Origin: Saccharopolyspora gloriosae
GTDB taxonomy: Bacteria; Actinomycetota; Actinomycetes; Mycobacteriales; Pseudonocardiaceae
Direction of reading: 5' to 3'
Assembly (NCBI RefSeq): GCF_014203325.1
Contig: NZ_JACHIV010000001.1
Coordinates: forward strand, 5,891,501 to 5,955,500
DNA length: 64,000 nt
In this document: one piece after another, positions 34,947-61,768 of the stretch
Layout: every line of letters begins with the position of its first letter
Position numbering within the stretch: position 1 is the first letter of the stretch
Notes under the pieces: generated by a model
The model's input: only the letters and a program-made list of their open reading frames with translations
The model's database searches: none
What the model was told of the DNA's origin: nothing
Program-made: the position numbers and the translations under genes

Positions 34947-36110
34947 ATGGCCGTCGACCGCCTCTTGCCCAGCCAGGAAGCCACCGACCTGCTCGAGCTG
35001 ACCGCGGAGATCGCCCGCGACGAGCTCGCCCCCGCCGCCGCGAGCGCCGAAGAGCAGGAGCGCTTCCCGCGCAAGGCGTTCCAGCTGCTCGGCGCCTCCG
35101 GCCTGCTCGGCCTGCCCTACCCGGAGGAGCACGGCGGCGGCGCCCAGCCCTACGAGGTCTACCTCCAGGTGCTCGAAGAGCTCAGCAGCGCCTGGATGAC
35201 CGTCGGCGTCGGCCTGTCCGTGCACACCATGTCCTGCTACCCGCTCGCCCACCACGGCACCGCGCAGCAGCGCGAACGCTGGCTGCCGGAGATGATCGGC
35301 GGGGAGCTGCTCGGCGGCTACGCGCTGTCCGAGGCGCACGCCGGTTCCGACGCCGCCGCGCTGAGCACCCGCGCCGAGCGCGACGCCGACGACTACGTCG
35401 TCACCGGCAGCAAGTCGTGGATCACGCACGGCGGCGTGGCGGACTTCTACACCCTGATGGCGCGGACCTCCGACGACGGGCCGCGCGGCATCAGCTGCCT
35501 GCTCGTCGACGGCGGCACGCCGGGGCTGTCGGCGGCACCGCCGGAACGCAAGATGGGCCTCACCGGCTCCCCCACCACGGAGCTGCGGTTCGAAGGCGCC
35601 CGAGTACCGGCGGAGCGGCTCATCGGCGACGAGGGCCAGGGCTTGTCCATCGCGCTGGACGCCCTCGATTCCGGCCGGCTCGGCATCGCCGCCTGCGCCG
35701 TCGGGCTCGCCCAGGGGGCGCTGGACCTCGCCGTGGACTACGCGCGGCAGCGCACGCAGTTCGGGAAGGCGATCATCGAGTTCCAGGGCGTGGAGTTCCT
35801 GCTCGCCGACATGGCCGCCGCCGTGCAGTCCGCCCGCGCCGCCTACCTGGACGGGGCGCGGCGACGCGACGCGGGCCGGCCGTTCGGGATGCAGGCGTCG
35901 GTGGCGAAGCTCGTCGCCACCGACGCCGCGATGAAGGTGACCACCGACGCGGTGCAGGTCCTCGGCGGCGCGGGCTACACCCGCGACTTCCCCGCCGAGC
36001 GCTACATGCGCGAAGCGAAGGTCCTCCAGATCTTCGAAGGCACAAACCAGATCCAACGCATGCTCATCGCCCGCCACGTTCGATCTTGTTCTGCTCGGGT
36101 GTCCGGGTAG
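34947..36110 (+). CDS. Acyl-CoA dehydrogenase with a repeat-derived C-terminus
   Basis: FAD enzyme that desaturates acyl-CoA. The 387-residue protein has the family signatures YALSEAHAGSDAAAL near 130 and the C-terminal QVLGGAGYTRDFPAERYMREAKVLQIFEGTNQIQRMLIARH. The catalytic Glu is probably the one in IFEGTN. Family members normally end a few residues after RH; here the frame goes on with VRSCSARVSG and its TAG stop lies in the conserved edge of the dispersed hairpin element. The start ATG has AAGGAGCGCC upstream. It is divergent from a TetR regulator. Confidence 0.92.
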   Translation: MAVDRLLPSQEATDLLELTAEIARDELAPAAASAEEQERFPRKAFQLLGASGLLGLPYPEEHGGGAQPYEVYLQVLEELSSAWMTVGVGLSVHTMSCYPLAHHGTAQQRERWLPEMIGGELLGGYALSEAHAGSDAAALSTRAERDADDYVVTGSKSWITHGGVADFYTLMARTSDDGPRGISCLLVDGGTPGLSAAPPERKMGLTGSPTTELRFEGARVPAERLIGDEGQGLSIALDALDSGRLGIAACAVGLAQGALDLAVDYARQRTQFGKAIIEFQGVEFLLADMAAAVQSARAAYLDGARRRDAGRPFGMQASVAKLVATDAAMKVTTDAVQVLGGAGYTRDFPAERYMREAKVLQIFEGTNQIQRMLIARHVRSCSARVSG

Positions 36111-36262
36111 CGGAACCTCAGCTGTCTTCTCGCTGCGGGATCTTTTTCCCAAGTGGCTCCGCCACGAGGGAAAAAGCTGTCCTCGCGAGAAGACAGCTGA
36201 GAACCCGCCGGTGGTCCGGCTGCGTGCGTGGTCGCTGCTCAGCGGCTCCGCCGCTGACAAGA
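36098..36262 (-). repeat. Dispersed hairpin element, copy A (full)
   Basis: Read on the minus strand it contains TCAGCGGCGGAGCCGCTGA, then CGGCGGGTTCTCAGC, outer stem CAGCTGTCTTCTCGC with GCGAGAAGACAGCTG, internal-loop constants GAGGACAG and ATCCCGCA, inner hairpin CTTTTTCCC/GGGAAAAAG and end GGTTCCGCTACCCGGACAC. It adjoins the 3' end of the acyl-CoA dehydrogenase gene and supplies its stop codon. Confidence 0.9.
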
Positions 36263-36310
36263 CAATGCCTGCCTGGCGCGCGGCTTACCGAGGTCGGACG
36301 AGCGAGCCGC

Positions 36311-37240
36311 TCAGAACGGACGCAGGCCCCACTGCGCTATCCAGTCCTCGCCGGGGGCGAGGGTGATGAGGTCGGTGCCGGAGTTGAGGGCGTCCGGTGG
36401 GCAGGTCATGGGTTCGATGGCGACGGCCCGGCCGCGGCCGGGGAACTCGTCGTTCGTGTAGACCTGCACCCACTTGAACACCGGGTCCGCCCACAGCTCC
36501 ACGCCGTGCCCCGAGGGGTCGGTCAGCGAGTGCCGGACCAGGGAGTCGCCGGGCGCGGGGACGGCGCCGCCGAAGGCGGTGTCCAGCAGCACGCCCGCCA
36601 ACCTGCGACCGCGGCGGAAGTCCTGCTCGTCGCCTTCCAAGGCGCGCGGCGGGCGCACCGGCAGCAACCGCTCCGGGTCCACCGGCAGCACCGTCGCCGC
36701 CGCCAGCCGCAACGTGCAGTCGTCGGTCTCGGCCAGCCCGGCGCGCGGGTACGGGTGCACGCCGACGCCGAACGGGACGGCGCGCTTGCCCAGGTTCTCC
36801 ACGGTGTGCGTGACGGTCAGCCCGGCATCGTCCAGGGCGTAGCCGATGGAGGTCAGCAGCGGCACCGGCCAGCCCGGCTGCGCAGGGACCATCGCGTGCA
36901 GCACGATCGTCGACTCGGCGTGCTCCACCACCGTCCAGGCTGTGTGCCGGAGCAGGCCGTGGATGGCGTTGTGCCGCTCGGGTTCGGTGAGCGCGAGCTG
37001 CTGCGGCTCCCGCTCCAGGGTCCACGTGCCGTCGGCGACCCGGTTCGGCCACGGCACCAGCACCGCACCGGCGCCGCCAGGCGGGCGCTCGTCGGCGTCG
37101 TAGGTCTCGGAGTACGCCACCCCGTCGACGTCGTAGGAGCGCAGCGCGGCGCCGACCTCGGTGACCACGGCGCGCGCGGCGCCGTGCACGATCTCGAACT
37201 GCCTGCCGGTGGCCGCGACTGGATCATTCACACCGACCAC
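36311..37240 (-). CDS. Aldose 1-epimerase family protein (mutarotase-like)
   Basis: The 309-residue protein has the GalM-type beta-sandwich signatures NRVADGTWTLER (Arg), ERHNAIHGLLRHTAWTV (His) and FGVGVHPYPRAG (second His), with a late acidic site in IEPMTCPPDALNSG. It should interconvert alpha and beta anomers of hexoses. Start GTG 37240. It lies between an APC permease gene upstream on the same strand and copy A of the dispersed repeat; a strong terminator at 37279-37317 separates it from the permease. Confidence 0.88.
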   Translation of the reverse strand: MVGVNDPVAATGRQFEIVHGAARAVVTEVGAALRSYDVDGVAYSETYDADERPPGGAGAVLVPWPNRVADGTWTLEREPQQLALTEPERHNAIHGLLRHTAWTVVEHAESTIVLHAMVPAQPGWPVPLLTSIGYALDDAGLTVTHTVENLGKRAVPFGVGVHPYPRAGLAETDDCTLRLAAATVLPVDPERLLPVRPPRALEGDEQDFRRGRRLAGVLLDTAFGGAVPAPGDSLVRHSLTDPSGHGVELWADPVFKWVQVYTNDEFPGRGRAVAIEPMTCPPDALNSGTDLITLAPGEDWIAQWGLRPF

Positions 37241-37278
37241 TCTAGAACGTGCGCGCCGCGGCCGTGGCCGACGCGAAA

Positions 37279-37317
37279 AAGCCCCGCCCCGCGGGTTTTC
37301 ACCGCGGGACGGGGCTT
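37279..37317 (-). terminator. Intrinsic terminator after the APC permease gene
   Basis: On the minus strand AAGCCCCGTCCCGCGG pairs with CCGCGGGGCGGGGCTT and is followed by TTTCGC. This is one of the strongest terminators in the window. Confidence 0.88.
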
Positions 37318-37354
37318 CGGGGTCCTTCCAGAATGATCTTCTGATCGGTGTCTC

Positions 37355-37403
37355 GTCAGCGGCGAAGCCGCTGAGGTTCCGCTGAGCGACCCGCTGCGCA
37401 GGT
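37355..37403 (+). repeat. Truncated copy of the dispersed hairpin element (copy B), inside a larger inverted repeat
   Basis: GTCAGCGGCGAAGCCGCTGA is joined directly to GGTTCCGCTGAGCGACC, as if the central part had been deleted. It is enclosed by GTCCTTCCAGAATGATCT (37322-37339) and the near-perfect reverse complement AGGTCATTCTGAAAGGAC (37400-37417). Confidence 0.7.
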
Positions 37404-37434
37404 CATTCTGAAAGGACTCCTTCGGCGAGACCGG

Positions 37435-38829
37435 TTACTTGGCCAGCTTGTCCGGGTCGAAGTCGACGCGGCCGGCGATCAGCCGGTTCACGCCCCAGAA
37501 CACGACGCCGATGAGCAGCAGGGCCCCTGCGACCAGGTATTCGGCGACGGGACGGCCCGACAGCGGGCTCGCGAAGAACAGGCACAGCACGGCGCCCAGC
37601 GCCGGAATCCACGTCGGGGCCTTGAAGTGCTTGTGCTCCACGACGTCCTTGCGCAGCACCAGGACCGCGACGTTGACGATGGCGAACACGACCAGCAGCA
37701 GCAGCGAGGTGGTGCTGCCCAAGTCCTCGATCTCCAGCAGGCTCACCAGGACCACGGCCAGGATGCTGGTGAACAGGATCGCGACCCACGGCGTCTGCCG
37801 GGAGCGGTGCACGCGGCCGAACACCGACGGGATGATCCGCTCGTTCGACATGCCGTAGACGAGGCGGCTGGCCATCAGCATGTTGATCAGGGCGGTGTTG
37901 GTGACCGCGAACAGCGCGATGATGGAGAACAGGATCGGCGGGAACCACGGCGCGGCGGCCTTCACGACCAGCAGCAGCGGCGCGTCGGTCGCCGCGAGCT
38001 CGTCAGTGGGCACCAGCGTCGAGGTGATCACCGCGATGATCAGGTAGATGGCGGCGGTGATGGACAGGCCGAGCAGCAGCGCGCGCGGGAAGACCTTCGC
38101 CGGGTTGCGGGTCTCCTCGGCCATGTTCACCGAGTCCTCGAAGCCGACCATCGCGAAGAACGCCAGCGCGGTCGCCGAGGTGACGGCCAGCAGCGGGCTG
38201 GACTCGGGGTTGAACTCCAGCAGCCTGCCCGGGTCCGGCGCGACCGCCGGGTCATTGGAGCCGCTGATCAGCGCGTAGGCGCCGAAGAGGATGACCAGCA
38301 GCAGCCCGCCGAGCTCCACGCAGGTCAGCACCACGTTCATCTTCACCGACTCGCCCACGCCCCTGAAGTTGATCAGGGCCAGGACGATCAGGAAGGCCAG
38401 CGCGACGACGATCGCGGCCGGACCCACGCTGGGGAAGATCTCCTCCAGGTAGTTGCCGCTGAACGCCTGCGCCGCGGAGGCGGCGGAAGTGATGCCGGAG
38501 CACATCACGGCGAACGCGATGATGAAGGTGATGAAGTGGATGCCGAACGCGCGGTGCACGTACAGCGGCGCGCCACCGGCCTTCGGGTACTTGCCCACCA
38601 GCTCCAGGTAGCTGCACGCGGTGAGGAACGCGACCACGAAGGCGACCACGAACGGAATCCACAGCGCGCCGCCGACCTTGCCTGCGACCTTGCCGGTCAG
38701 GGAGTACACCGTGGTGCCGAGGATGTCTCCCACCACGAAGAACAGGAGCAGTTTCGGCCCCATGACCTGCTTCAGGCCGGGCTGCGCACCGTCGGGCGCC
38801 TCGTTGTCCATGGTCGTGTCGTTGGCCAT
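37435..38829 (-). CDS. APC-superfamily amino acid permease
   Basis: The 464-residue protein has about twelve transmembrane helices. Helix 1 reads LLLFFVVGDILGTTVYSLTG, the unwound glycine region typical of APC permeases, and AFFAMVGFEDSVNMAEETRNP is the helix 6 signature. The substrate is probably an amino acid or amine; the sequence does not decide. ATG 38829 is chosen so that the protein starts MANDTTMDNEAPDG with a short cytoplasmic segment. It is followed by repeat copy B and a terminator. Confidence 0.9.
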   Translation of the reverse strand: MANDTTMDNEAPDGAQPGLKQVMGPKLLLFFVVGDILGTTVYSLTGKVAGKVGGALWIPFVVAFVVAFLTACSYLELVGKYPKAGGAPLYVHRAFGIHFITFIIAFAVMCSGITSAASAAQAFSGNYLEEIFPSVGPAAIVVALAFLIVLALINFRGVGESVKMNVVLTCVELGGLLLVILFGAYALISGSNDPAVAPDPGRLLEFNPESSPLLAVTSATALAFFAMVGFEDSVNMAEETRNPAKVFPRALLLGLSITAAIYLIIAVITSTLVPTDELAATDAPLLLVVKAAAPWFPPILFSIIALFAVTNTALINMLMASRLVYGMSNERIIPSVFGRVHRSRQTPWVAILFTSILAVVLVSLLEIEDLGSTTSLLLLVVFAIVNVAVLVLRKDVVEHKHFKAPTWIPALGAVLCLFFASPLSGRPVAEYLVAGALLLIGVVFWGVNRLIAGRVDFDPDKLAK

Positions 38830-39100
38830 GGCAGGAAAGTGTGCCGGTTCAGCTGGGGCGATCTTGGGGCACCCCTGGTAGAACGCCTGCGCCACCGGAC
38901 GCACCGGGTGCGGCCGAATGTCGCAGTGACAGTCCGCGGCCTGCGCTTTTCACGTCGCGCGGTGATCGGATCGCCGACCCGATCGGCAGATTCCGCGGCC
39001 GGATCGGAACCGGACCGTCACCGCCTCCCGCAGCACCGCGCGTTCGCTGCTCCGATCCGGTGAGATCGCGGGCCGCTCCGCGACGGCCGCCGCAAGAGGG

Positions 39101-40390
39101 TCAGGCCGTCGGCGCCCGGTACCGCCAGAACGCGGGGATCAGCAGCGCCGCGGCGAGCGCGCACACCACGACGAGCACGCCGCCCGCGGCGATGGTGGCC
39201 TGCGCGCCGATCGCCGCGCCCCCGCTGCCGTGCAGCACGTCCGCGAGCCGCGGGCCGCCCGCGACGACGACGGTGAACACGCCCTGGATGCGCCCGCGCA
39301 TCTCGTCGGTCGCCGCCGCCTGCAGCATCGAACTCCGGTAGACCATGCTCACCAGGTCCGCTCCGCCGCCGATGGCGAGGAACAGCACCCCGAGCCACAG
39401 CGAGTCCGCCAGCCCGAACCCGATGATCGCCACGCCCCACACGAGCACGCCGATGGTGACGCCGACGCCGTGGCGCAGGATGCGGTGCAGCCAGCCGGAC
39501 AGCACCCCGAACACGAAGGCGCCCAGCGGGATCGCCGCGTACAGCCAGCCCAGCGCCGCGCCGCCGCCCGGCGGGTCGCCGTAGACGCGCTCGGCCAGTT
39601 CGGGGAACAGGGCGCGCGGCATCCCGAACACCATCGCGATGATGTCCATCAGGAACGACGCGAGCAGCACCGGGTGCGTGGCGAGGTAGCGGAACCCGTC
39701 GATGACGGAGCGCAGCCCGGCCTTCGTCGGCGCCCCTTCCAGCGGCGGCAGCGCGGGCAGCCGGAACACCGCCCACACCGCGACGGTGAGCGCGAGCGCG
39801 TCCACCAGGTACAGCACCGACAGCCCGAGCAGCGGCAGCAGGACACCGGCCAGCAGCGGCCCGACGACTGATCCGAGCTGGAACACGGTGGAGCCCAGCG
39901 CCTGCGCCGAGGGCAGCAGCGGGGCCGGAATGATCCGGGCGATGGCGGCGCTGCGCGTCGGCATGTTCACGGCGAAGCAGGTCTGCTGCAGCGCGAACAG
40001 CACCAGCACCAGCCACACCGAACCGGTGCCGCTCGCGGCCACCAGCCACAGCAGGATCGCGGTCGCGGCGAGCCCGCTGTTGGTGACCAGCAGCAGCTTC
40101 CGGCGGTCCACGATGTCGGCGACGGCGCCGCCCCAGAGGCCGAACACCAGCAGCGGCACCAGGCCGAAGATCCCCGCGAGGCCCACGTAGGCGGAGTTGC
40201 CGGTGAGGTCGTAGAGCTGCTTGGGCACCGCGACAGCGCTGAACTGCGCCCCGACGGAGGTGACGATGCTGGAGGTCCACAGCCGCCGGTACGCCGGGTA
40301 CTGCAACGGCCGGGTGTCGAGGACGACCTTGCCGAGCACCGATCGCCAAGATCGCCGGGTTTCCGTAGCGCGCCCGCTGTCCTCGTCCAC
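39101..40390 (-). CDS. MFS exporter, EntS-like
   Basis: The 429-residue protein has about twelve transmembrane helices and the pattern of drug/siderophore exporters of the EntS-like group: RRLWTSSIVTSVGAQFSAVA in helix 1, ADIVDRRKLLLVTN after helix 2 (a loop 2-3 motif) and MYRSSMLQAAATDEMRGRIQG between helices 10 and 11. The substrate is not known. GTG 40390 has a TAGGGT box eight bases upstream, which suggests leaderless translation. Its upstream region is an 800-bp gene-free zone full of repeats. Confidence 0.88.
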   Translation of the reverse strand: MDEDSGRATETRRSWRSVLGKVVLDTRPLQYPAYRRLWTSSIVTSVGAQFSAVAVPKQLYDLTGNSAYVGLAGIFGLVPLLVFGLWGGAVADIVDRRKLLLVTNSGLAATAILLWLVAASGTGSVWLVLVLFALQQTCFAVNMPTRSAAIARIIPAPLLPSAQALGSTVFQLGSVVGPLLAGVLLPLLGLSVLYLVDALALTVAVWAVFRLPALPPLEGAPTKAGLRSVIDGFRYLATHPVLLASFLMDIIAMVFGMPRALFPELAERVYGDPPGGGAALGWLYAAIPLGAFVFGVLSGWLHRILRHGVGVTIGVLVWGVAIIGFGLADSLWLGVLFLAIGGGADLVSMVYRSSMLQAAATDEMRGRIQGVFTVVVAGGPRLADVLHGSGGAAIGAQATIAAGGVLVVVCALAAALLIPAFWRYRAPTA

Positions 40391-40398
40391 GAAGGGCC

Positions 40399-40404
40399 AC
40401 CCTA
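40399..40404 (-). promoter_or_regulatory. -10 box (TAGGGT) for leaderless MFS gene
   Basis: TAGGGT on the minus strand ends eight bases before the GTG at 40390. Confidence 0.4.
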
Positions 40405-40624
40405 GCCATGAGCCTGGCTAAAGAAACCATCCGTTGTGACGCACCCGACGCCCCGCACCACCATCCAGGTGAACCCCCGAACCCACTCCCCCCAGCACGC
40501 CCACCCCAAGCCGAACAGGGCCAGCGGCCGAAAACCAAGCACCACAAGAAAAACCGAACCCACCCGCCCGGGAGGCCGTGCCTCCCAGCAGCAAAACCAC
40601 CCCGCCTCACGACCGAAACCCACA

Positions 40625-40950
40625 CCTAGCGGCGAAGCCGTGCCTCGCGACCGAAGGCCGCGCAGTGGGCGAGCGAACCCACGCATGCGTAGCGGCCATG
40701 CCCCGCGGCAAGGCCGTGCAACGAACGGCGAAACAAGCCTGCTCAGCACCGAAGGCCGCGCCGAGCGGCAAAACCGTGCAGTGAACGGCGAAGCCGTGCT
40801 TGCCTAGCGGCGAAGCCGCGCCTTGGGCGGGCGATAGCCACGCCTGCCTCGCGGCCGAAGGCCGTGCCGTGCGGCGAAGCCGTGCCTTGGGCGGCGAAGC
40901 CACGCCTGCCTTGCGGCCGAAGGCCGTGCCTGTATTCGCGCAGCGAATAG
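40625..40950. repeat. Degenerate array of GCGGCGAAGCCG mini-hairpins
   Basis: Roughly a dozen units of the type GCGGCgaaGCCGtGCC alternate with CGGCCgaaGGCCG units. Each is a short stem closed by a GAA loop; several contain GCGAAGC, a DNA heptamer known to fold into an unusually stable mini-hairpin. The array ends with TATTCG/CGAATA (40932-40949). No open frame is supported through it. Confidence 0.7.
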
Positions 40951-40969
40951 CCCACGTCCAAAAGCCGCC

Positions 40970-41090
40970 CACCCGCGGGTTCTCAGCGGCTTCCTCGCGA
41001 GGACAGCTTTTTCCCTCGTGGCGGAGCCACTCGGGAAAAAGATCCCGCAGCGAGGAAGCCGCTGAGGTTCCGCTAAGCGACCACCAAAGC
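40970..41090 (+). repeat. Dispersed hairpin element, copy C
   Basis: CCCGCGGGTTCTCAGC is followed by outer stem CAGCGGCTTCCTCGC and GCGAGGAAGCCGCTG, constants GAGGACAG and ATCCCGCA, inner hairpin CTTTTTCCC/GGGAAAAAG with apical GTGGCGGAGCCAC, and GGTTCCGCTAAGCGACC. The right end points to the pdxH stop. The usual leading hairpin is replaced by the mini-hairpin array. Confidence 0.9.
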
Positions 41091-41218
41091 AGAACGAGCC
41101 GTGGAAGCACTCAGTGAACCCGGCATTCCACGCACCACAGCAACCACACGCCCAAACCGGGGAAGGCCTTAAAACCCGACGCCACACGCCAAGCCGAACC
41201 CGGCTCCACAACCGCGGC

Positions 41219-42919: not shown

Positions 42920-42932
42920 CGCGAGCCCCGCC

Positions 42933-44322: not shown

Positions 44323-44340
44323 CCGCCGCCTCCGATCAGG

Positions 44341-46068
44341 TCAGAACAGGAAGTACCGCTGGGCCATGGGGAGTTCGCGCACCGGCTGCGGTTCCACCAG
44401 ATCACCGTCGATGCGCACCGCGAAGCTGTCCGGGTCCACCTCGATGTCCGGGGTGGCGTCGTTGAGCAGCATCGACGCCTTCGTCACCTGCCGCGTGCCG
44501 CGCACCGCGACGAGTTCCCGCTCCAGCCCGAGCCGGTCGCCGAGCCCGGAGTCCACGGCCTCCGGCGCCACGAAGTGCACACCGGCGCGAGCGGCGGCCC
44601 GGCCCGCCGCACCGAACATGGGGCGCCCGAGCACGGGCTGCGGCGTGGGGATCGAGGCGTTCGCGTCACCCATCTGCGCCCACGCGGGGAAGCCGCCCTT
44701 GAACACCACGTCCGGCCGGACGCCGAAGAACTTCGGTTCCCACAGCACGAGGTCGGCGAGCTTGCCCACTTCGACCGAGCCCACCAGGTGGTCGATGCCG
44801 TGCGCCCGCGCCGGGTTGATCGTGTACTTCGCGAGGTAGCGCCGGGCGCGCAGGTTGTCGGCGGCGCCGTCGCCGGGCAGCGGGCCGCGCCGGTCCTTCA
44901 TCACGTGCGCCGTCTGCCAGGTCCGCACGATCACTTCGCCGATGCGCCCCATCGCCTGCGCGTCCGAGCTGATCATGGAGATGGCGCCGAGGTCGTGCAG
45001 CACGTCCTCGGCGGCGATGGTGCTCGGCCGGATCCGGCTCTCCGCGAACGCCAGGTCCTCCGGCACCGCCGGATTCAGGTGGTGGCACACCATCAGCATG
45101 TCGAGGTGCTCGTCGATGGTGTTCACCGTGTGCGGCCGGGTCGGGTTCGTCGAGGACGGCAGCACGTTCGCGGCGGCGGCGACCCGGATGATGTCCGGCG
45201 CGTGCCCGCCGCCGGCGCCTTCGGCGTGGTAGGCGTTGATGGAGCGGCCGTTGATCGCCGCGAGCGTGGACTCCAGGAATCCGGTCTCGTTGAGCGTGTC
45301 GGTGTGGATCGCCACCTGCACCCCGGAGCGTTCGGCGCAGCGCAGCGCGGCGTCGATCACCGCGGGCGTGCAGCCCCAGTCCTCGTGCAGCTTCAGCCCG
45401 CCCGCCCCGGCTCGCAGCTGCTCGTCGAGGGCGTCGCCGCGCACGGTGTTGCCCTTGCCGAGCAGCAGCAGGTTCACCGGCGCCTGCTCCAGCGCGGTGA
45501 GCATCCGGCCGAGGTTCCACGCGCCCGGCGTGACCGTGGTGGCCTTGCTGCCCTCGACCGGGCCGGTGCCGCCGCCGATGAGCGTGGTGAGCCCGGAGGC
45601 GATGGCGGTGTCGATCTCCTGCGGGCAGATGAAGTGCACGTGGCAGTCCACCCCGCCGGCGGTGAGGATCTTGCCGCCGCCGCCCACGACCTCCGTGGAC
45701 GGCCCGATGACCAGCGCCGGATCCACCCCGTCGGTGATGTCCGGGTTGCCCGCTTTGCCGATGCCGACGATGCGCCCGTCGCGCACGCCCACGTCGGCCT
45801 TGACCACGCCCCAGTGGTCCAGCACCACGACTCCGGTGATCACCAGGTCCGGGGTGCCTTCGGCGCGGGTGGCCGCGGATTGGCCCATCGACTCGCGGAT
45901 CACCTTGCCGCCGCCGAACACGGCTTCCTCGCCTGATCCGGCGGGCCCCGTGCTGCGGTCCTCGGTGACCTCCACCAGCAGATTCGTGTCGGCGAGCCGG
46001 ATCCGGTCGCCGGTGGTGGGCCCGAACAACTCCACGTAGCGGGCGCGGTCCACGGACGGAGTGCTCAC
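44341..46068 (-). CDS. ureC: Urease subunit alpha
   Basis: Catalytic subunit that hydrolyses urea to ammonia and carbamate at a dinickel centre. The 575-residue protein has the nickel ligands in [12 protein letters not shown], the carbamylated Lys in [13 protein letters not shown], further ligand and flap motifs [30 protein letters not shown] (mobile flap His) and [15 protein letters not shown] (ligand Asp). It begins with GTG 46068, overlapping ureB by four bases. No key residue is missing. Confidence 0.97.
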
Positions 46069-52507: not shown

Positions 52508-52581
52508 GGCGTCAGGGCCTGCCGGACCGGGAGGCTGCCTTTGATCTCGTCGTTGCGGCCGGGCAGGGTTCTTGATCCCTG

Positions 52582-52738
52582 TCTTGTCAGCGGCGAAGCC
52601 GCTGAGCAGCGACCCAGCACGCAGGTCGACCACCCGCGGGTTCTCAGCGGTTTCCTCGCGAGGACAGCTTTTTCCCTCGTGGCGGAGCCACTCGGGAAAA
52701 AGATCCCGCAGCGAGGAAACCGCTGAGGTTCCGCCACC
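52582..52738 (+). repeat. Dispersed hairpin element, copy D (full)
   Basis: CTTGTCAGCGGCGAAGCCGC, GACCACCCGCGGGTTCTCAGC, outer stem CAGCGGTTTCCTCGC with GCGAGGAAACCGCTG, constants GAGGACAG and ATCCCGCA, inner hairpin CTTTTTCCC/GGGAAAAAG, apical GTGGCGGAGCCAC and GGTTCCGC. The right end is 40 bases from the stop codon of the DUF2537 gene. Confidence 0.9.
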
Positions 52739-52778
52739 CGCCCCACCTGGCAAGCCGAGTCGACGATTCCGATCTCGA

Positions 52779-54544: not shown

Positions 54545-55861
54545 ATGTCCACCGCCGAGGACACCACGATCGATGGGGCCCAGCGCCGGTTGGGGAGCAA
54601 GACCAAATTCGCGCTCATCCTCGGTGGGCTGACGGCTTTCGGGCCGCTGTCCATCGACATGTACCTACCTGCGCTGCCGCAGCTGACCACGGAGCTGGGG
54701 GCCACCGAGTCACAGGCGCAGCTGACGCTGACGGCGGTCCTGCTCGGCCTCGCGCTGGGCCAGCTGGTCGCCGGGCCGATCAGCGACTCCGTCGGCAGGC
54801 GGCGCCCGCTACTGGTCGGGCTCGCCGTGTACATCGTCGCGTCGGTGCTGTGCGCGCTGTCCGGGTCGATCTACGCGCTGGCGGGCCTGCGGCTGTTGCA
54901 GGGCGCGGGCGCCGCGGCGGGCATGGTGATCGCCCGAGCGGCGGTCCGCGACCTGTACTCCGGTGTGGAGGCCGCCCGGTTCTTCTCGTCGCTGATGCTG
55001 GTGACCGGGCTGGCGCCGATCTTGGCGCCGGTCGCGGGCGGGCAGATCCTGGCGCACACCACGTGGCGCGGCGTGTTCGTCGTGCTGACCGCGTTCGGCA
55101 CGCTGCTGCTGCTGGTCGCGGCGTTCCTGCTGCCGGAGACGAAGCCGAAGCAGTGGCGCCAGCCCGCGAACCTGGGCAGCACCTTCCGGACGTTCGGTTC
55201 GCTGCTGGCGGCACCGTCGTTCCTGGGCAACGCGCTGACCGGCGGCCTGGGCATGGCGGCGATGTTCGCCTACATCTCCGGTTCGTCGTTCGTGCTGCAG
55301 AACATCTACGCGATGTCGCCGCAGACCTACAGCATCGCGTTCGGGGCGAACGCGATCGGCCTGGTGCTGGCCGGGCAGGTCAACGCGCGGCTGGTCGGCC
55401 GGGTGGCTTCGGAGGCGCAGCTGCTGGTGGGCGCGCTGCTGACCTCCTCGGTGGCGGGCGCGGTGCTGCTGTCGGCGGCGGTGCTGGACCTGCCGCTGCC
55501 GTTCCTGCTGGGAGCGCTGTTCGTGATGGTCTCGGCGCTGGGCTTCGTCATGCCGAACACGACGATGCTGGCGCTGGCCGACAACCGCGAGGTCTCCGGG
55601 AGCGCGTCGGCGCTGCTGGGCGTGTGCCAGTTCATCGTCGGCGCGCTGGCCGCGCCGCTGGTCGGGCTGGGCGGCACGGGGTCCGCGGTGCCGATGGCGC
55701 TGGTGATGTTCGGCGTCGTGGTGGCCGCGACCGCCATGTTCCTGACGCTGGGGCGGCGCGGGCTCAATCGCACGGAGGTCGTCGCCAGCTCCGCCGAGGT
55801 TCGCCACGGCACCCCGGCCGAGGCCCCGGCGGAGCCGGACCGGACCGGTTCCGACCGCTGA
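54545..55861 (+). CDS. Bcr/CflA-family multidrug MFS exporter
   Basis: The 438-residue protein has about twelve transmembrane helices. The start MSTAEDTTIDGAQRRLGSK leads to LSIDMYLPALPQLTTELGAT, which is the Bcr/CflA signature, and GPISDSVGRRRPLLVGLAVY is the MFS loop 2-3 motif. A proton-coupled export role is expected. GAGGAG lies six bases before the ATG. Upstream (54290-54544) is a divergent promoter region with an imperfect AGTTGC-AGAGA-GCAAACT palindrome. A GC-rich hairpin (55876-55917) follows. Confidence 0.92.
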   Translation: MSTAEDTTIDGAQRRLGSKTKFALILGGLTAFGPLSIDMYLPALPQLTTELGATESQAQLTLTAVLLGLALGQLVAGPISDSVGRRRPLLVGLAVYIVASVLCALSGSIYALAGLRLLQGAGAAAGMVIARAAVRDLYSGVEAARFFSSLMLVTGLAPILAPVAGGQILAHTTWRGVFVVLTAFGTLLLLVAAFLLPETKPKQWRQPANLGSTFRTFGSLLAAPSFLGNALTGGLGMAAMFAYISGSSFVLQNIYAMSPQTYSIAFGANAIGLVLAGQVNARLVGRVASEAQLLVGALLTSSVAGAVLLSAAVLDLPLPFLLGALFVMVSALGFVMPNTTMLALADNREVSGSASALLGVCQFIVGALAAPLVGLGGTGSAVPMALVMFGVVVAATAMFLTLGRRGLNRTEVVASSAEVRHGTPAEAPAEPDRTGSDR

Positions 55862-55875
55862 CCTCGTGGTCCGCC

Positions 55876-55917
55876 GCGCGCGCGTCGTGCACCCCACGCA
55901 GGTGGACGACGCGCGCG
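55876..55917 (+). terminator. Long GC hairpin after the Bcr/CflA gene
   Basis: CGCGCGCGTCGTGCACC pairs with GGTGGACGACGCGCGCG with one mismatch; it begins 15 bases after the stop codon. Confidence 0.6.
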
Positions 55918-56082
55918 GGCGAGGAAATATCGTGCGGCCCGGAGTCGCGATCACGCCCGGCTCCGGCACGGCTGTGCCGCCGACCTCCGACCGCACGCCG
56001 CACCCCGCTCCGGTGAGAGCTCCGGGAGGTGCGGGCCGGGCACGCGCCCGGTGAGGACACGACGACCGAAGGCAGGGTTTCC

Positions 56083-57018
56083 ATGGCCCCACTGGGCACC
56101 ACCGACCTCGACGTCCACCCGATCTGCCTGGGCGGCAACGTCTTCGGCTGGACCGCCGACCGCGACGACTCGTTCGCCGTGCTCGACGCGTACGTCGCCG
56201 CGGGCGGCAACTTCATCGACACCGCCGACCTCTACATGGCCTCCGCGCCCGGCAATTCCGGCGGCGAGTCCGAGACGATCATCGGCGAGTGGCTGCGGGC
56301 TCGCGGCAACCGCGGCCAGGTCGTCATCGCCACCAAGGTCGCGAAGCTGCCGGGCCGCCGCGGCCTGTCCCCCGACAACATCCGCGCCGCCGCCGAGGAT
56401 TCGCTGCGGCGCCTCGGCGTCGACCACATCGACCTGTACTACGCGCACGAGGACGACGAGTCGGTGCCGCAGGCCGAGACGATGGCGGCGTTCGACGGCC
56501 TGGTGCGCGAGGGCAAGGTGCGCCACCTCGCGGCCTCGAACTTCACCGGTGACCGGCTGGCGTCGGCGCTGGCGGCCTCCGACCGCGAGGGCCTCGCCCG
56601 CTTCCAGGCGGTGCAGCCGCACTACAACCTCGTCGAGCGCGCCGAGTACGAGACCGATCTGGCCGAGCTGGTGGCGCGGGAGAAGCTGCCGGTGCTGCCG
56701 TACTTCGCGCTGGCGAAGGGATTCCTCACCGGCAAGTACCGGCCGGGCGACACGTTCTCCGACAGCCCGCGCGCGGATGCCGCGCGTAGTTATCTGGACG
56801 AGCGGGGTGTCAAGATCCTCACCGCATTGGAGGAGATCGCAACGCTGCGTGGAGTGCCGGAGGCGTCGGTGGCGCTGGCCTGGCTGCGCGCCCGCCCGTC
56901 GATCGCGGCCCCGATCGCCAGCGCCCGCAACACCGATCAGCTCACGGCGCTGCTGGTAGCGGCCGAGCTGGAGCTGACCGGAGCGGAGCTGGAGAGGCTC
57001 ACCACGGCCTCCGACTGA
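56083..57018 (+). CDS. Aldo/keto reductase
   Basis: The 311-residue protein has the TIM-barrel signatures GGNFIDTADLYMASAPGNSGG (Tyr in the active site), ATKVAKLPGRRG (Lys), DLYYAHEDDESVPQ (His) and VQPHYNLVERAEYE, plus the NADPH loop SARNTDQLTAL at the C-terminus. It belongs to the group of AKRs whose N-terminus is MAPLGTTDLDVHPICLGGN. Substrate unknown. ATG 56083 with AGGG ten bases upstream. Confidence 0.93.
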   Translation: MAPLGTTDLDVHPICLGGNVFGWTADRDDSFAVLDAYVAAGGNFIDTADLYMASAPGNSGGESETIIGEWLRARGNRGQVVIATKVAKLPGRRGLSPDNIRAAAEDSLRRLGVDHIDLYYAHEDDESVPQAETMAAFDGLVREGKVRHLAASNFTGDRLASALAASDREGLARFQAVQPHYNLVERAEYETDLAELVAREKLPVLPYFALAKGFLTGKYRPGDTFSDSPRADAARSYLDERGVKILTALEEIATLRGVPEASVALAWLRARPSIAAPIASARNTDQLTALLVAAELELTGAELERLTTASD

Positions 57019-57166
57019 GGTCTGGAAAGTCACTTTTCCCGCTGGTCAAGTGCGGTATTCGAGTGCTCGCTCGAACACCGTTTTGGACGCTGGTCCGCCG
57101 GGTACCGATGTGTCACGGTTGGTGTCCACCTAGCCGGCGTGCTGGCCGACCGAGCAGGGAGACGGC

Positions 57167-58663
57167 ATGGGGAAGCACGTGACCAGTCGGGCTTTCACTC
57201 CTGTGGACCGGCAACGCTATCGAGACAAGATGCAGCGCGGCCTCGACGCGTTGGCGCGGATGCTCGCCGAGGGCAACTTCTCCTTCCCGCACCAGCAGAT
57301 GGGGCTGGAGATGGAGCTGAGCCTCGTCGACGAGCGGATGGAGCCGTCGATGTCGAACGCGGTGGTGCTGGAGAAGATCAACGATCCTTCCTTCACCACC
57401 GAGTTGGGCCAGCACAACATCGAGCTCAACGTGCTGCCCCGCGCGCTCGCCGGGGACGGCGCGCTGGAGCTGGAGCACGAGCTGCGCAAGGCGCTGCTGC
57501 GCGCGGACGGCAAGGCGCAGGACGCGAACGCGAAGCTGGTGCTGATCGGCACGCTGCCCACGTTGCAGCGCGGGCACTTCGACCCGGGCTGGTTGTCGCA
57601 CAACCCGCGGTACTCGCAGCTCAACGAGCAGATCTTCACCGCCAAGGGCGAGGAGATGCTGCTGGACATGGAGGGCGCCCCGCTCGGCGACGGCGGCCCG
57701 GAACAGCTCCGGTGCTACGCGGACTCCATCGTTCCCGAATCCGCGTGCACATCAGTGCAACTGCATCTGCAAGTGGCACCCGAGGACTTCGCCGCGCATT
57801 GGAACGCCGCACAATGCCTGGCCGGAGTGCAGCTGGCGATCGGCGCGAACTCCCCGTTCCTGCTCGGCAAAGCGCTCTGGCACGAGACGCGGGTGCCGCT
57901 GTTCCAGCAGGCCACCGACACCCGGCCGCAGGAGCTCAAGAACCAGGGCGTGCGCCCGCGGGTGTGGTTCGGGGAACGCTGGATCACCTCGATCTTCGAC
58001 CTGTTCGAGGAGAACGTCCGCTACTTCCCCGCCCTGCTGCCGGAACCGGAGGAGGAGGACCCGGTGGCCGCGCTGCAGGCCGGGCGGGCGCCGACGCTGG
58101 CGGAGCTGCGGCTGCACAACGGCACCATCTGGCGGTGGAACCGCCCGGTGTACGACCTGGTGGACGGCGTTCCGCACCTGCGGGTGGAGAACCGGGTGCT
58201 CCCGTCGGGACCGAGCGTGCCGGACGTGATGGCCAACGCCGCGTTCTTCTACGGCGTGCAGCGCGCGCTGACCGAACAGGACCGTCCAGTGTGGACTCAA
58301 ATGTCGTTCGCCGCGGCGGAGGAGAACTTCTACACCGGTGCCCGGCACGGCATGGACTCGCACCTGTACTGGCCGGGCGCGGGCTGGATCACCCCGGATG
58401 AGCTGGTGCTGCGCCGCCTGCTGCCGATGGCGCACGAGGGCCTGCGGCTGTGCGGGGTCTCCGACGCGGCGCGGGAGCACACGCTCGGCGTCATCGAAGC
58501 GCGCTGCCTGCGCAAGCAGACCGGCTCGTCGTGGCAGCGGGACGTGGTGGCGCGGCTGGAGCAGCGCGGCCACGACCGGCAGGCGGCGCTGACGGGAATG
58601 CTGCGGCGCTACGTGGAACTCACCGACGCCGGCGAACCGGTGCACGACTGGCCCGTGGAGTGA
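57167..58663 (+). CDS. GCS2-family glutamate-cysteine ligase-like enzyme
   Basis: The 498-residue protein has GLEMELSLVDERMEPS near residue 47, ELGQHNIELNV near 84 and QLHLQVAPEDFAAHWNAAQ further on; these resemble carboxylate-amine ligases of the GCS2 family. Members form gamma-glutamyl bonds, but the substrate of this group is not known; the mycothiol pathway does not need a glutamate-cysteine ligase. The start ATG 57167 has CAGGGAGACGGC before it. No signal peptide. The upstream 148 bases hold its promoter. Confidence 0.85.
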   Translation: MGKHVTSRAFTPVDRQRYRDKMQRGLDALARMLAEGNFSFPHQQMGLEMELSLVDERMEPSMSNAVVLEKINDPSFTTELGQHNIELNVLPRALAGDGALELEHELRKALLRADGKAQDANAKLVLIGTLPTLQRGHFDPGWLSHNPRYSQLNEQIFTAKGEEMLLDMEGAPLGDGGPEQLRCYADSIVPESACTSVQLHLQVAPEDFAAHWNAAQCLAGVQLAIGANSPFLLGKALWHETRVPLFQQATDTRPQELKNQGVRPRVWFGERWITSIFDLFEENVRYFPALLPEPEEEDPVAALQAGRAPTLAELRLHNGTIWRWNRPVYDLVDGVPHLRVENRVLPSGPSVPDVMANAAFFYGVQRALTEQDRPVWTQMSFAAAEENFYTGARHGMDSHLYWPGAGWITPDELVLRRLLPMAHEGLRLCGVSDAAREHTLGVIEARCLRKQTGSSWQRDVVARLEQRGHDRQAALTGMLRRYVELTDAGEPVHDWPVE

Positions 58664-58801
58664 GGCGCGAAAACCCCTGTGCGCGGGCCTTCGGTCCCGG
58701 TGATTGAGATCAACCCCGCCCGGACTGCGGCGGCCGGACAGTTGCTACTAGATTTGCCATTGCTAGGGACTGTCAGCGATACGCGCACAGGGAGACGCTC
58801 A

Positions 58802-59431
58802 ATGGCTCAGTACGTGCTGCCCGAGTTGGATTACGACTACGCGGCGCTGGAGCCCGCGATCTCGGGTGAGATCAACGAGCTGCACCACAGCAAGCACCAC
58901 GCGACTTACGTGAAGGGCGCCAACGACACGATCGAGAAGATCGCGGAGGCGCGGGACAAGGGCGACTTCGGGTCGATCGTGGGGTTGGAGACGACCCTGG
59001 CGTTCAACCTGGCGGGGCACTCGCTGCACCTGGTGTGGTGGAAGATCCTCTCGCCGAACGGTGGCGACAAGCCGACCGGTGAGCTGGCGGCGGCGATCGA
59101 TCAGGACTTCGGTTCGTTCGACAAGTTCCGCGCTCAGCTGGAGGCGGTGTCGACCACGATCCAGGGCAACGGCTGGGGCGTGCTGGCGTGGGACCCGGTG
59201 GGTCAGCGGTTGATCACGCAGCAGCTGCGCGACCACCACTCGAACCTGTCGATCGCCACGACGCCGCTGCTGGTGTTCGACATCTGGGAGCACGCGTACT
59301 ACCTGCAGTACAAGAACGTCAAGGCGGACTACGTCAAGCAGCTGTGGAACGTCGTGAACTGGGACGAGGTCGGCAAGCGCTTCGCCGACGCGCGTGCCGG
59401 CTACAACGGCCTGCGCCTGCCCACCGCTTGA
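58802..59431 (+). CDS. sodA: Superoxide dismutase (Fe/Mn family, mycobacterial Fe-type pattern)
   Basis: Dismutates superoxide. The 209-residue protein has the metal ligands in [19 protein letters not shown] (His), [15 protein letters not shown] (His), and [20 protein letters not shown] (Asp, His). QLRDHHSNL carries a His at the place where Mn-type enzymes have the second-sphere Gln, as in the Fe-loaded SodA of M. tuberculosis; metal use is inferred. No signal peptide. GGGAGACGCTCA precedes the ATG. Upstream, GACAGT and ACTGTC lie 27 bases apart in inverted order. Its 3' region has three hairpins and faces an iron box. Confidence 0.96.
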
Positions 59432-59470
59432 TCCCGCCGCGCCGGGCACCGGCGCACCGCGGACGCTCGA

Positions 59471-59507
59471 CACTTCGGGGCCTTCCTCTCGGGAAGGCCC
59501 CGAAGTG
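59471..59507 (+). terminator. Terminator after sodA, hairpin 1
   Basis: CACTTCGGGGCCTTCC pairs perfectly with GGAAGGCCCCGAAGTG over 16 bp with a 5-base loop, 40 bases after the stop. Confidence 0.8.
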
Positions 59508-59569
59508 CTGTCCGGGGTGGTGCCGGAGCACCGCGCGTAGTGCTCCGGCGACGCGGGTCCGAACGCGAA

Positions 59570-59601
59570 CGAACCCCGCCTCCCGGAGGAAGCGGGGTTC
59601 G
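59570..59601. terminator. Bidirectional hairpin between sodA and the MFS gene
   Basis: CGAACCCCGC pairs with GCGGGGTTCG around a GC-rich loop. A further hairpin GCCGGAGCAC/GTGCTCCGGC lies at 59522-59549. They can serve either strand. Confidence 0.6.
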
Positions 59602-59648
59602 CTCTGTTCCCGAACTGACTGCCGCTCCCACCACGAAGCGGACATGTA

Positions 59649-59667
59649 TTAGGTTAGCCTAACCTCC
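59649..59667. promoter_or_regulatory. IdeR/DtxR iron box
   Basis: TTAGGTTAGCCTAACCTCC matches the 19-bp palindromic iron-box consensus TTAGGTTAGSCTAACCTAA at 17 positions (the two end bases differ). It overlaps the stop codon of the MFS gene at 59654 and lies in the -10/spacer region of the minus-strand promoter, so iron-loaded IdeR would block it. No protein gene starts nearby on either strand. Confidence 0.85.
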
Positions 59668-59679
59668 CAGGCTCTGCAA
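59651..59679 (-). promoter_or_regulatory. Minus-strand promoter overlapping the iron box
   Basis: TTGCAG (59679-59674) and TAACCT (59656-59651) are separated by 17 bases. TAACCT fits TANNNT and TTGCAG is close to TTGACA. The expected start is about 59644. Confidence 0.45.
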
Positions 59680-60994
59680 CCCCCGATCTCCGCCCCCGCC
59701 ACAGCAGCAGTCCGCAACCCACCGCGGCCAGCAACGAGGCGAGCCCGCCCAGCAGCACCGGCGACCGCGGCCCCAGCACCTCCGCGAGCCAGCCCGAGGC
59801 CAGCCCGCCCAGCGGTTTCCCGCCGAGGAACAGCAGCATGTAGAGGCCCATCACGCGCCCGCGCATCGACGGGTCGACGCTCAGCTGCACGGTCGAGTTC
59901 GCGCTGGTCGTGAAGGTCATCACCGCCACCCCGACCGGGATCAGCATCACCGCGAACGACCAGTAGCCCGGCATCAGCGCGCCCACCGCCTCCAGCAGCC
60001 CGAACGCGGCGGCGCCGAACACCATCAGCCGCAGCCGCGAGCCCTCCTTGCCGCTGCGGCGCGCGGCGAGGGTGGCGCCGGACAGCGTGCCGACCGCGAG
60101 CATCGTGATCAGCAGTCCGTAGCCGTCGGCGTCGCGGCCGAACACGTTGCGGGCGATGACCGCGAAGGTGCTCTCGAAGTTCATGCCGAAGGTGCCCACG
60201 CAGAACACCAGCACCATCACCGCGACCAGGTCGGGCCGCCGCCGCACGTAGCGCAGCCCGGCGAGCACCTGGCCGCGCTCCTTCGGCACCCGGTCCGGGC
60301 GGTGCAGCTGCGCCGCGTTCATCAGCAGCAGCCCGCCCACCACGGCGGCGGAGCTGATGCCGTTGGCGAGGAACACCCAGCCGGTGCCGACGGCGGTGAT
60401 GAGCACGCCCGCGATGGCGGGGCCCACGATGCGCGCCAGGTTGAAGGTCATCGAGTTCAGCGCGACGGCATTGGTGAGCTGCGACGGCCCCACCATCTCC
60501 ACCACGAACGACTGGCGGACCGGGGCGTCGATCGCCGCGAACGCGCCGAGCACGGCGCACAGCGCGTACACGTGCCAGAGCCGCACGACCCCGGACACGT
60601 CGAGCAGGCCGAGCAGCAGTCCGCACGCGCCCAGCGCGATCTGCGTCGCGATCAGCAGGCGCCGCTTGTCGAACCGGTCGGCCGCGGTGCCCGCCCACAG
60701 CGTCAGCAGCAGCGTCGGCAGGAATTGCAGCGCGACCGCCACGCCGAGCGCGCCGGCGCTGCCGCCGGAGAGTTCCAGCACCAGCCAGTCCTGCGCGGCC
60801 CGCTGCATCCACGTGCCGGTGAGCGAGACGACCTGACCGGAGGCGTAGTAGCGGTAGTTGCGCACCCGCAGCGAGCCGAACATGCCGCCGCCGGAGCCCT
60901 CCCGGCCTGGCGGAGCGGCGAGCTCGCCGGTGGTGGATGTGCGGTTCGCACCGTCCGGGCCGTGCCCTGACGGGTGCAGCGATTCACCTGACAC
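59654..60994 (-). CDS. MFS exporter (EntS-like) in an operon with MarR
   Basis: The 446-residue protein has twelve expected transmembrane helices; FGSLRVRNYRYYASGQVVSL begins the fold and ADRFDKRRLLIATQ is the loop 2-3 motif; PVRQSFVVEMVGPSQLTNAV lies in helix 4-5. It is similar in build to the exporter at 39101-40390. The substrate is unknown; an exported drug or siderophore is plausible. It starts with GTG 22 bases after marR, so the regulator and pump form an operon. Its last codons and stop lie in the iron box. Confidence 0.9.
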   Translation of the reverse strand: MSGESLHPSGHGPDGANRTSTTGELAAPPGREGSGGGMFGSLRVRNYRYYASGQVVSLTGTWMQRAAQDWLVLELSGGSAGALGVAVALQFLPTLLLTLWAGTAADRFDKRRLLIATQIALGACGLLLGLLDVSGVVRLWHVYALCAVLGAFAAIDAPVRQSFVVEMVGPSQLTNAVALNSMTFNLARIVGPAIAGVLITAVGTGWVFLANGISSAAVVGGLLLMNAAQLHRPDRVPKERGQVLAGLRYVRRRPDLVAVMVLVFCVGTFGMNFESTFAVIARNVFGRDADGYGLLITMLAVGTLSGATLAARRSGKEGSRLRLMVFGAAAFGLLEAVGALMPGYWSFAVMLIPVGVAVMTFTTSANSTVQLSVDPSMRGRVMGLYMLLFLGGKPLGGLASGWLAEVLGPRSPVLLGGLASLLAAVGCGLLLWRGRRSGVAEPGRLG

Positions 60995-61016
60995 CGCCGA
61001 CGTGCTCAGCTCCCCT

Positions 61017-61451
61017 CTAGCGCTCCGAGATCCGTTCCATGATCTCGGCGGCGCGACTCAGCGTCGCGCGCTCTTCCTTGGTCAGCTCGGCGAGCTGGAT
61101 GTCGAGCCAGCGCTCCCGAGCGGAGATCTCCTCATCGATGCGGGCGCGGCCCGCGTCGGTGAGGTCGACGACGGCCTGCCGCCCGTCGGTGGGATGCGGG
61201 GTGCGCACCACCAGGCCGAGGTTTTCGAGGGCGGCGATGACCCTGGTCATCGACGGCGGCTGCACGCCTTCCTTCGCGGCGAGCACGCCCGGTGTCATGG
61301 CTCCGGCCTTGTGCAGGCAGGACAGCGCGGACAACTGGGAGAGCGTGACGACGGAGTCGGTGCTCTGCGCCCGCAACCTGCGGTTGAGTCGGACGGAGGC
61401 CATCCGCAGCCGAGTGGCCAGCGTGCGCTCACGTTCAGCGATCTCGGACAC
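61017..61451 (-). CDS. MarR-family regulator
   Basis: The 144-residue protein has the winged helix SQLSALSCLHKAGAMTPGVLAA, QPPSMTRVIAALENLGLVVRTPHPTDGRQAVVDLTDAG, with the wing motif DGRQ. It starts at GTG 61451; a TAGACT box six bases upstream and no ribosome site point to leaderless translation. It probably represses its own operon with the downstream MFS gene. Confidence 0.93.
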   Translation of the reverse strand: MSEIAERERTLATRLRMASVRLNRRLRAQSTDSVVTLSQLSALSCLHKAGAMTPGVLAAKEGVQPPSMTRVIAALENLGLVVRTPHPTDGRQAVVDLTDAGRARIDEEISARERWLDIQLAELTKEERATLSRAAEIMERISER

Positions 61452-61457
61452 GTCGTT

Positions 61458-61463
61458 AGTCTA
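61458..61463 (-). promoter_or_regulatory. -10 box (TAGACT) for leaderless marR
   Basis: TAGACT on the minus strand ends seven bases before the GTG codon's first base at 61451. Confidence 0.5.
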
Positions 61464-61470
61464 CCAAACT

Positions 61471-61484
61471 ATTTGACGACAAAT
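61471..61484. promoter_or_regulatory. Candidate MarR operator ATTTG-ACGA-CAAAT
   Basis: A perfect 5-bp inverted repeat with a 4-base spacer lies just upstream of the marR -10 box, in the place where a repressor would block the promoter. The A/T content is high for this genome. Confidence 0.5.
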
Positions 61485-61603
61485 CGGACGATCGACCCAT
61501 GGTCGGGCGCGATGCGCGGAGCTTAGGGGACTCGACGTCCGACGATCACCCGAGGTGGCGAATTCGTACCCGATCGTCAGCCGTTGACGACTTCCGCCCC
61601 GGT

Positions 61604-61768
61604 CGATCTTGTCAGCGGCGGAGCCGCTGAGCAGTGACCACGCTCGCAGCAGGACCACCGGCGGGTTCTCAGCGGCCTTCTCGCGAGGACAGCCCGTTTG
61701 CCCAGTAGGCGGCTACTTCAAAACGGGATCCCGCAGCGAGAAGGCCGCTGAGGTTCCGCTACCCGGAC
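61604..61768 (+). repeat. Dispersed hairpin element, copy E (full, with a different inner hairpin)
   Basis: CTTGTCAGCGGCGGAGCCGC, CCACCGGCGGGTTCTCAGC, outer stem CAGCGGCCTTCTCGC with GCGAGAAGGCCGCTG, constants GAGGACAG and ATCCCGCA, and GGTTCCGCTACCCGGACAC. The inner hairpin differs from the other copies: CCCGTTT with AAACGGG and apical AGTAG/CTACT. It lies 30 bases from the stop of the purine permease gene; the rest of the 347-bp gap (61452-61798) holds only the MarR control region. Confidence 0.9.

Follow-up and report, generated by a model that had tools for sequence, protein, structure and literature searches.

The window analysed here, a stretch of 64,000 nucleotides from Saccharopolyspora gloriosae (hereafter the own genome), carries four full-length copies, A to D, of a structured element: copy A lies where the genes for an acyl-CoA dehydrogenase and an aldose epimerase end, and copy D at the stop codon of a permease gene. 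All four were matched at full length in a search with the covariance model R1, which was built from 44 own-genome copies (alignment A1, from which copy B was omitted). An earlier sequence-only reading of the window had described four copies whose outer stems pair perfectly while the middle pairs differ from copy to copy, and all four are indeed present (its 'copy E' is the copy at 61604, copy D here). The copy that it placed at 40970 is likewise a full one and is not truncated; it belongs to a second subfamily, in which the two-loop hairpin is unchanged and a different 5′ hairpin (TATTCGC GCA GCGAATA, 40933-40949) stands instead of TCAGCGGCGAAGCCGCTGA. The conserved unit is larger than had been drawn, as the small 5′ hairpin belongs to it too, along with about 15-35 nt of sequence to the left and right. 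Model searches of the genome and of the family Pseudonocardiaceae showed that the element is far more numerous than in the window alone, with at least 150 copies in the own genome and at least 150 in each of the relatives G137 and G120. These two (about 96% and 90% identical in DNA to the own genome), together with G101, G046 and G079, are the five genomes of the same genus used for comparison below.

The consensus fold consists of a 5′ hairpin with 7-8 bp, a linker about 30 nt long, a GCGG/CCGC helix, a GUU/GUU internal loop (rendered by the folding program as G.U, U-U, U.G) and a 17-bp stem, inside which an asymmetric loop, GAGGACAGC / GATCCCGCA, encloses two G-C pairs and is followed by an inner 7-bp stem and an apical stem. 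The core thus comprises about 160 nt with two internal loops. The plus strands of three window copies, folded as RNA, gave z-scores of -7.3 to -8.9, and the two strands together ranged from -5.4 to -8.9; 0 of 200 shuffles folded as well. No Rfam family reached its gathering score over the element, in line with the earlier statement that it matches no named family; in a permissive search of four loci the best overlap was ilvB-OMG, with 22 bits (E 0.007) where 95.9 are needed.

The covariation claimed for the stems is real when set against shuffled and slid controls. In alignment A1, assembled without a structure model from copies similar in DNA to a single query or from neighbouring copies, 99.1% of the cells are paired and both partners have changed in 14 of the 44 pairs; the score for covariation is 0.194, compared with 0.065 for shuffled alignments (0 of 500 reach the real value) and 0.03-0.06 for slid partners. 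Alignment A3 covers the family with 30 copies from 12 genera, picked by R1 score and hence biased to pairing; here 97.1% of the cells are paired, 26 of 43 pairs changed on both sides, and the score is 0.451 versus 0.132 shuffled (again 0 of 500) and 0.06-0.09 slid. Relatedness of the copies inflates the shuffle comparison, while the slid controls retain it. The arms could be anything from 15 to 19 nt long, and in 91 of 95 copies both of them have 17 nt. The joints GAGGACAG and ATCCCGCA, which had been called constant, are identical in the four window copies and nearly, though not fully, constant across 108 own copies, where the asymmetric loop reads GAGGACAGC in 84 and GAGGACGGC in 24 and its partner reads GATCCCGCA in 103. 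Among 44 copies from outside the genus, 41 have GAGGACAGC and 39 have GATCCC continued by GCA, GGA or ACA, a constancy that is partly built in because the extraction patterns tolerated few loop changes. These results suggest that the fold itself is being kept.

The stems of a single genome show how far their sequence can turn over. The 108 distinct own copies with 17-nt arms, obtained from 120 sources, carry 31 different arm pairs (copies with arms outside the extraction patterns are excluded from this count and from the count of wobble pairs in other genera). Full pairing is found in 96 of them, one mismatch in 10, two in one and three in one, and the imperfect pairs comprise 5 G.U and 3 A.C among 1836 cells; as similarity or model score decided the choice of most copies, those with weak pairing are under-counted. 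One-sided changes, which the sequence-only reading had named as a sign against selection, therefore do occur, in 12 of the 108 copies (1-3 unpaired positions each), some of which are mosaics. Copies L028 and L040 combine arms that match two different alleles found elsewhere, and L230 of G137 is another mosaic. Such allele exchange, along with the scarcity of one-sided intermediates in the own genome, is what one would expect if the stems were matched by mutation and not by function, that is, if template switching and gene conversion acted on an ordinary palindromic miniature inverted-repeat transposable element (MITE). PMC8794818 describes template switching as a process that creates and maintains RNA hairpins. 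Covarying stems, taken by the earlier reading as the mark of selection, are thus no proof of it by themselves, since the copies exchange stem alleles and template switching can both make and keep perfect stems.

Comparison of the same locus in different species bears on this question. Eight comparisons were made at six loci (the L038 trio, copy C, copy A, L007/L229, L281/L230 and, in genus g34, the locus behind gatB, L061/L066), of which three share one locus and are not independent. Across them, both partners changed with pairing retained in 26 pairs, and a single partner changed in 20. The share of positions that differ is about the same for paired (79 of 701) as for unpaired ones (61 of 569), meaning that paired changes come in step, not slowly, which again fits matching by mutation. 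At copy A the stem reads CTCAGCTGTCTTCTCGC in the own genome and CTCAGTGAGCCTCTCGC in G120, both perfectly paired, and both genomes depart from G137 at the same point, the 3′ end of the acyl-CoA dehydrogenase gene. In genus g34 two low-copy genomes (1 and 4 matches) carry a copy behind gatB (a Pfam assignment), at 1501-1658 in both L066 and L061, and the two differ by six paired stem changes. When loci of relatives were matched to the 120 own sources, 8 of 30 agreed on both flanks, 2 on one flank and 20 on none; as the own sample is incomplete, 8 of 30 is not a rate of sharing. Four of these 8 pairs were left out of the comparisons above: L208/L023, L214/L009 and L220/L258 have different ends and may be re-insertions, and in L226/L117 the own copy has lost its core.

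What template switching leaves unexplained is the survival of the asymmetric loops and of the wobble pairs, and this is the argument for selection. The loops have not been overwritten outside the genus, even if the extraction pattern allowed few changes, and the nearly fixed arm length also speaks against matching by mutation alone. Among 34 distinct arm pairs of other genera (L062 left out), wobbles that are G.U on the plus strand outnumber A.C by 44 to 13 (p 5e-5), and by 27 to 12 (p 0.02) without the column that is most often G.U. Next to the first loop stand two G.U pairs, which 28 and 30 of the 30 A3 copies retain (one copy has G-C). The plus strand is the more stable one in 42 of 44 hairpins from other genera and in 40 of 46 own ones. 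From these comparisons of sequence we take the functional form to be the plus strand, presumably as RNA or as single-stranded DNA. Of the selection on a folded molecule that had been proposed, the covariation, the near-constant loops across 12 genera and the wobble bias, which fits folded RNA or single-stranded DNA, thus stand. We consider matching by mutation without function a serious contender, though an unlikely one.

The mobility of the element had been missed in the earlier reading, and it is well supported. The sequence of G137 at the site of copy D is CCCGATCGTCAGCCGG, whereas in the own genome two TCA triplets are separated by 219 bp; TCA stands on both sides of copy D and once in G137, and the target duplication could reach 6 bp, as the element begins with the next letters of the target. 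The insertion is bounded by the short inverted repeat GCCGTTG / CAACGGC. Copy D is also lacking in G046 and G079, and G120 has unrelated sequence at the site, while in G101 the same permease gene is followed by a copy (L202 1321-1473) that differs in its outer ends and in its stem allele. Two insertions at one stop codon, or loss of and changes in a shared copy, would account for this; movement is implied in both cases, copy D need not be young, and the permease stop codon may be hit repeatedly. A copy in Saccharopolyspora soli begins immediately behind the TGA of a gene, and the counterparts of this gene in S. elongata and in the window are without a copy (L119, L123), so that in the two cases read exactly the insertion target is the neighbour's TGA stop codon. 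The internally deleted derivative in the window (Table 1) ends in the inverted repeats GGTCCTTCCAGAATGATC / GATCATTCTGAAAGGACTCC and is missing in G137 and G120 by alignment and in G101, G046 and G079 by BLAST gaps. At copy A the locus in G137 holds about 250 bp of other sequence and is not a clean empty site; TCA at 36311-36313, just beyond the interval absent from G137, is the stop codon of the aldose epimerase gene. G137 does carry a copy at the copy C locus. As a separate observation, the open reading frame of the acyl-CoA dehydrogenase terminates inside the sequence of copy A (36075-36110, TAG at 36108-36110), and its C-terminus differs in G137.

Several kinds of end surround the same core. 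The type 1 end, GCCTGTCTTTGATCTTG, is found at 60 sites of the own genome with at most 2 mismatches, compared with 0 for the reversed control; a second type reads GGAGTCCTTTCAGAATGATC, and the GCCGTTG of copy D makes a third. Elements delimited by a pair of ends measure 224-256 bp when full and 65, 114, 118-119 or 154 bp when deleted. The triplet on the outer side of a recognised end is TNA in 24 of 52 cases. When inverted ends were sought with 18-mers and no preset sequence, the pairs returned were mostly at chance level. A cut-and-paste mode of movement is probable.

Table 1. Element copies and their parts in the window
Feature	Position	Strand	Basis
Copy A, structured core (5′ hairpin, linker, two-loop hairpin)	36104-36262	-	R1 185.6 bits
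Copy A, interval absent from G137	36075-36305	-	alignments with G137, G120, G101
Internally deleted derivative, about 100 bp	37321-37420	+	partial R1 match 37351-37393
Copy B, structured core	40928-41079	+	R1 137.2 bits
Copy C, structured core	52582-52740	+	R1 182.3 bits
Copy D, structured core	61607-61765	+	R1 179.4 bits; fold z -7.3
Copy D, whole insertion, 219 bp relative to G137	61580-61798	+	comparison with G137
Left TCA flanking copy D	61577-61579	.	comparison with G137
Copy D, left arm of 17-bp outer stem, then loop GAGGACAGC	61668-61684	+	
Right TCA flanking copy D (TGA stop codon of permease gene 61799-63532)	61799-61801	-	

Within Pseudonocardiaceae 53 of 200 genomes, from 13 of 46 genera, carry the element. 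A class-wide search with a family-wide model, R2, under stricter filters was positive in 2 of 393 genomes, both of this family. One own copy gave no match to plasmid records, and one copy from another genus none to phage records.

The copies have a preferred position relative to genes. Of 45 own copies, 44 had a gene on both sides (the second copy in L019 was excluded), and 17 of these lie between convergent genes, 25 between co-directional and 2 between divergent ones, whereas twenty 20-kb samples of the genome contain 58, 122 and 59 such gaps, respectively. By these counts, for which genes were called by a GC-position heuristic and not taken from annotation, copies are short between divergent genes (p 7e-4) and in excess between convergent ones (p 0.03 by count, 6e-6 by length). 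The right-hand gene faces the element in 33 of the 44 copies, and in 29 of these its stop codon lies within 45 nt of the end of the core. Such a position behind genes, and pairing that is kept at shared loci, for instance behind gatB in genus g34, could point to a 3′-end hairpin useful to the host, protecting mRNA ends or separating convergent genes and kept locus by locus. Yet copies differ between close relatives, copy C decays, and the left-hand gene reads into the plus strand in only 26 of the 44 copies. An intrinsic terminator (a GC stem followed by a T run), scanned for in copies C and D, was also rejected: none is present in D, and C has one weak match on the minus strand. We regard a host function of this kind as improbable.

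The copies are also oriented with respect to replication. Near 3.2 and 6.5 Mb (G000:C1) the 150 best-scoring copies switch their prevailing orientation, with 102 of the 150 in agreement with this split (permutation p <0.001, the split being optimised). GC skew changes sign at these places too: in samples it is positive in 9 of 9 from 0.1-2.8 Mb, negative in 9 of 10 from 3.2-6.2 Mb and positive at 6.56 Mb; no exact DnaA box occurs in the 12 kb on either side of the contig start. Plus-strand genes amount to 45% and 40%, so gene direction does not explain the bias. G120 has the same pattern in 63 of 92 among the copies listed (p 0.007), some of its insertions being common with the own genome. Together with a fold that is better on one strand, and with ends that vary while interior loops hardly do, this bias would suit a route like that of IS200/IS605, in which an enzyme other than Y1 reads the hairpin and moves the element as single-stranded DNA at the replication fork. 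The own genome has no Y1 transposase, and the flanking TCA repeats and inverted-repeat ends of part of the copies point instead to a DDE enzyme, which makes this route, too, improbable.

The explanation that we favour, if only by somewhat more belief than doubt, combines mobility with selection on the fold: the element would be a small non-autonomous, MITE-like mobile element of Pseudonocardiaceae, about 220-250 bp long, with a conserved structured core. Its plus-strand fold, as RNA or single-stranded DNA, may be what a partner protein or the mobilising machinery recognises, with the two near-constant loops as putative binding sites and the stem as a spacer that holds them apart. Selection on the fold would keep the stems paired while their sequence turns over. 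Template switching from arm to arm and conversion from copy to copy may help to keep the stems matched, and new stems that are already paired would most likely arise by template switching inside the hairpin and by conversion between copies. Because the same fold is found at more than 100 loci and no single host use fits all orientations, the fold may serve the element's own spread, with a mobilising enzyme acting in trans, and copies would survive behind genes because least harm is done there. We further entertain, tentatively and with a little less belief than we give to matching by mutation alone, that what defines the element is its shape and not its sequence, one strand's two-loop hairpin being read as RNA or as single-stranded DNA at the replication fork. 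Stems and ends could then turn over freely, even within one genome, while loops and spacing would stay near fixed.

A number of results weigh against this combined explanation. On the side of the fold, many copies were selected by a model that rewards pairing; the few imperfect pairs of the own genome (G.U 5, A.C 3) have no clear strand bias; for copy C, trimmed to 111 nt, the fold of the minus strand is slightly the better one; and between copy C and its counterpart in G137 there are three one-sided changes and no paired ones, which looks like decay. As to movement, a copy behind the permease gene is present in the farther G101 but missing in the nearer G137 and G120, so that G137 may have lost it and copy D would not then be a young insertion. 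The ends vary between subfamilies, which is odd for ends read by a transposase: type 1 or 2 ends stand on both sides in only 26 of 157 copies, 64 of the 108 own copies have neither, and equal triplets flank 5 of 26 (shuffled mean 2.5; 93 of 2000 shuffles reach 5). Searches of the own genome gave 0 matches for Y1 transposase (PF01797; control matched in 5 of 14) and 0 for reverse transcriptase (PF00078; control in 3 of 14). All 5 of its DDE_Tnp_1 loci were scanned and none is bounded by a pair of element ends, nor did 15 scanned of the 25 DDE_Tnp_4 loci in 12 genomes have an end pair around the transposase gene, although single near-matches to an element end occur. A mobilising enzyme was thus not found by the Y1, reverse transcriptase, DDE_Tnp_1 and DDE_Tnp_4 searches.

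The same searches speak against several known identities. The element is not a REP/RAYT or IS200/IS605 element served by the usual enzymes, for want of a Y1 transposase in the own genome, nor a retron or group II intron derivative, for want of a reverse transcriptase. An integron attC-like site was rejected because the GTT motifs are in direct and not inverted orientation. A phage or plasmid origin was rejected on the searches of plasmid and phage records with one copy each; two exact pattern matches in viral contigs gave no model match and are probably due to chance. The element shares with REP/BIME sequences, which go with RAYT enzymes, the character of dispersed palindromes. REPs measure 20-40 bp, unlike the core of about 160 nt with two internal loops described here.

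Traits of MITEs are present, namely shortness, many dispersed copies without a transposase gene, and presence or absence between close relatives. Membership of MITEs in the strict sense is only partly borne out, inverted ends and duplications being clear in a minority of copies. Like the bacterial MITEs reviewed in PMC10969869, the element is non-coding and short, has inverted-repeat ends in part of its copies and would form stem-loop transcripts; it differs in being GC-rich, in conserving its interior rather than its ends, and in that several kinds of end share one core. The words 'Actinobacteria' and 'Saccharopolyspora' do not occur in the main text of that paper. Nearest in kind are BOX, RUP and SPRITE of Streptococcus pneumoniae, small dispersed non-coding repeats with predicted folded transcripts, which according to PMC3049150 are over-represented between convergent genes and thought to be mobile. 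The present element has another sequence, host and layout, and its stems covary within a genome and across 12 genera while its loops hardly change; the main text of that paper has no word beginning with 'compensatory' or 'covari'. The template-switch hairpins of PMC8794818, proposed there for RNA genes, resemble it in perfect stems, paired changes and few intermediates, but they represent a mutation mechanism and not an element, and leave over the near-constant loops and strand-biased wobbles. A literature search of open-licence PMC papers found no description of the element; two of these papers report 190 putative non-coding RNAs from RNA-seq of S. erythraea (PMC3610266) and list stem-loop families for other genomes (PMC2267715).

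Other repeats and matches were observed in the window. Immediately before copy B, at 40573-40930, lies an array of short hairpin units, CTTGCGGCCGAAGGCCGTGCC and variants; its part 40573-40800 has matches at many places in the own genome as well as in G120 and G137, which suggests a second dispersed family of a REP-like kind. The segment 58790-59422 has a second copy, 98% identical, at G000:C1:4387801-4388430, and there are separate further copies in G137 and G120. A match to the Rfam family 5_ureB_sRNA at 45606-45895 (+), with 44.8 bits over a cut-off of 40, runs antisense within a predicted long gene and is possibly a chance GC-rich match.

The element points to a mobilising enzyme. It also offers more than 100 parallel histories of one hairpin in a single genome, recorded in 31 arm pairs, in mosaics and in comparisons of the same locus between species. 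An old question thereby becomes testable, namely whether compensated stem changes come from selection on the fold or from arm-to-arm copying during replication. To a family of antibiotic-producing actinomycetes the finding adds a large family of structured elements without an Rfam match.

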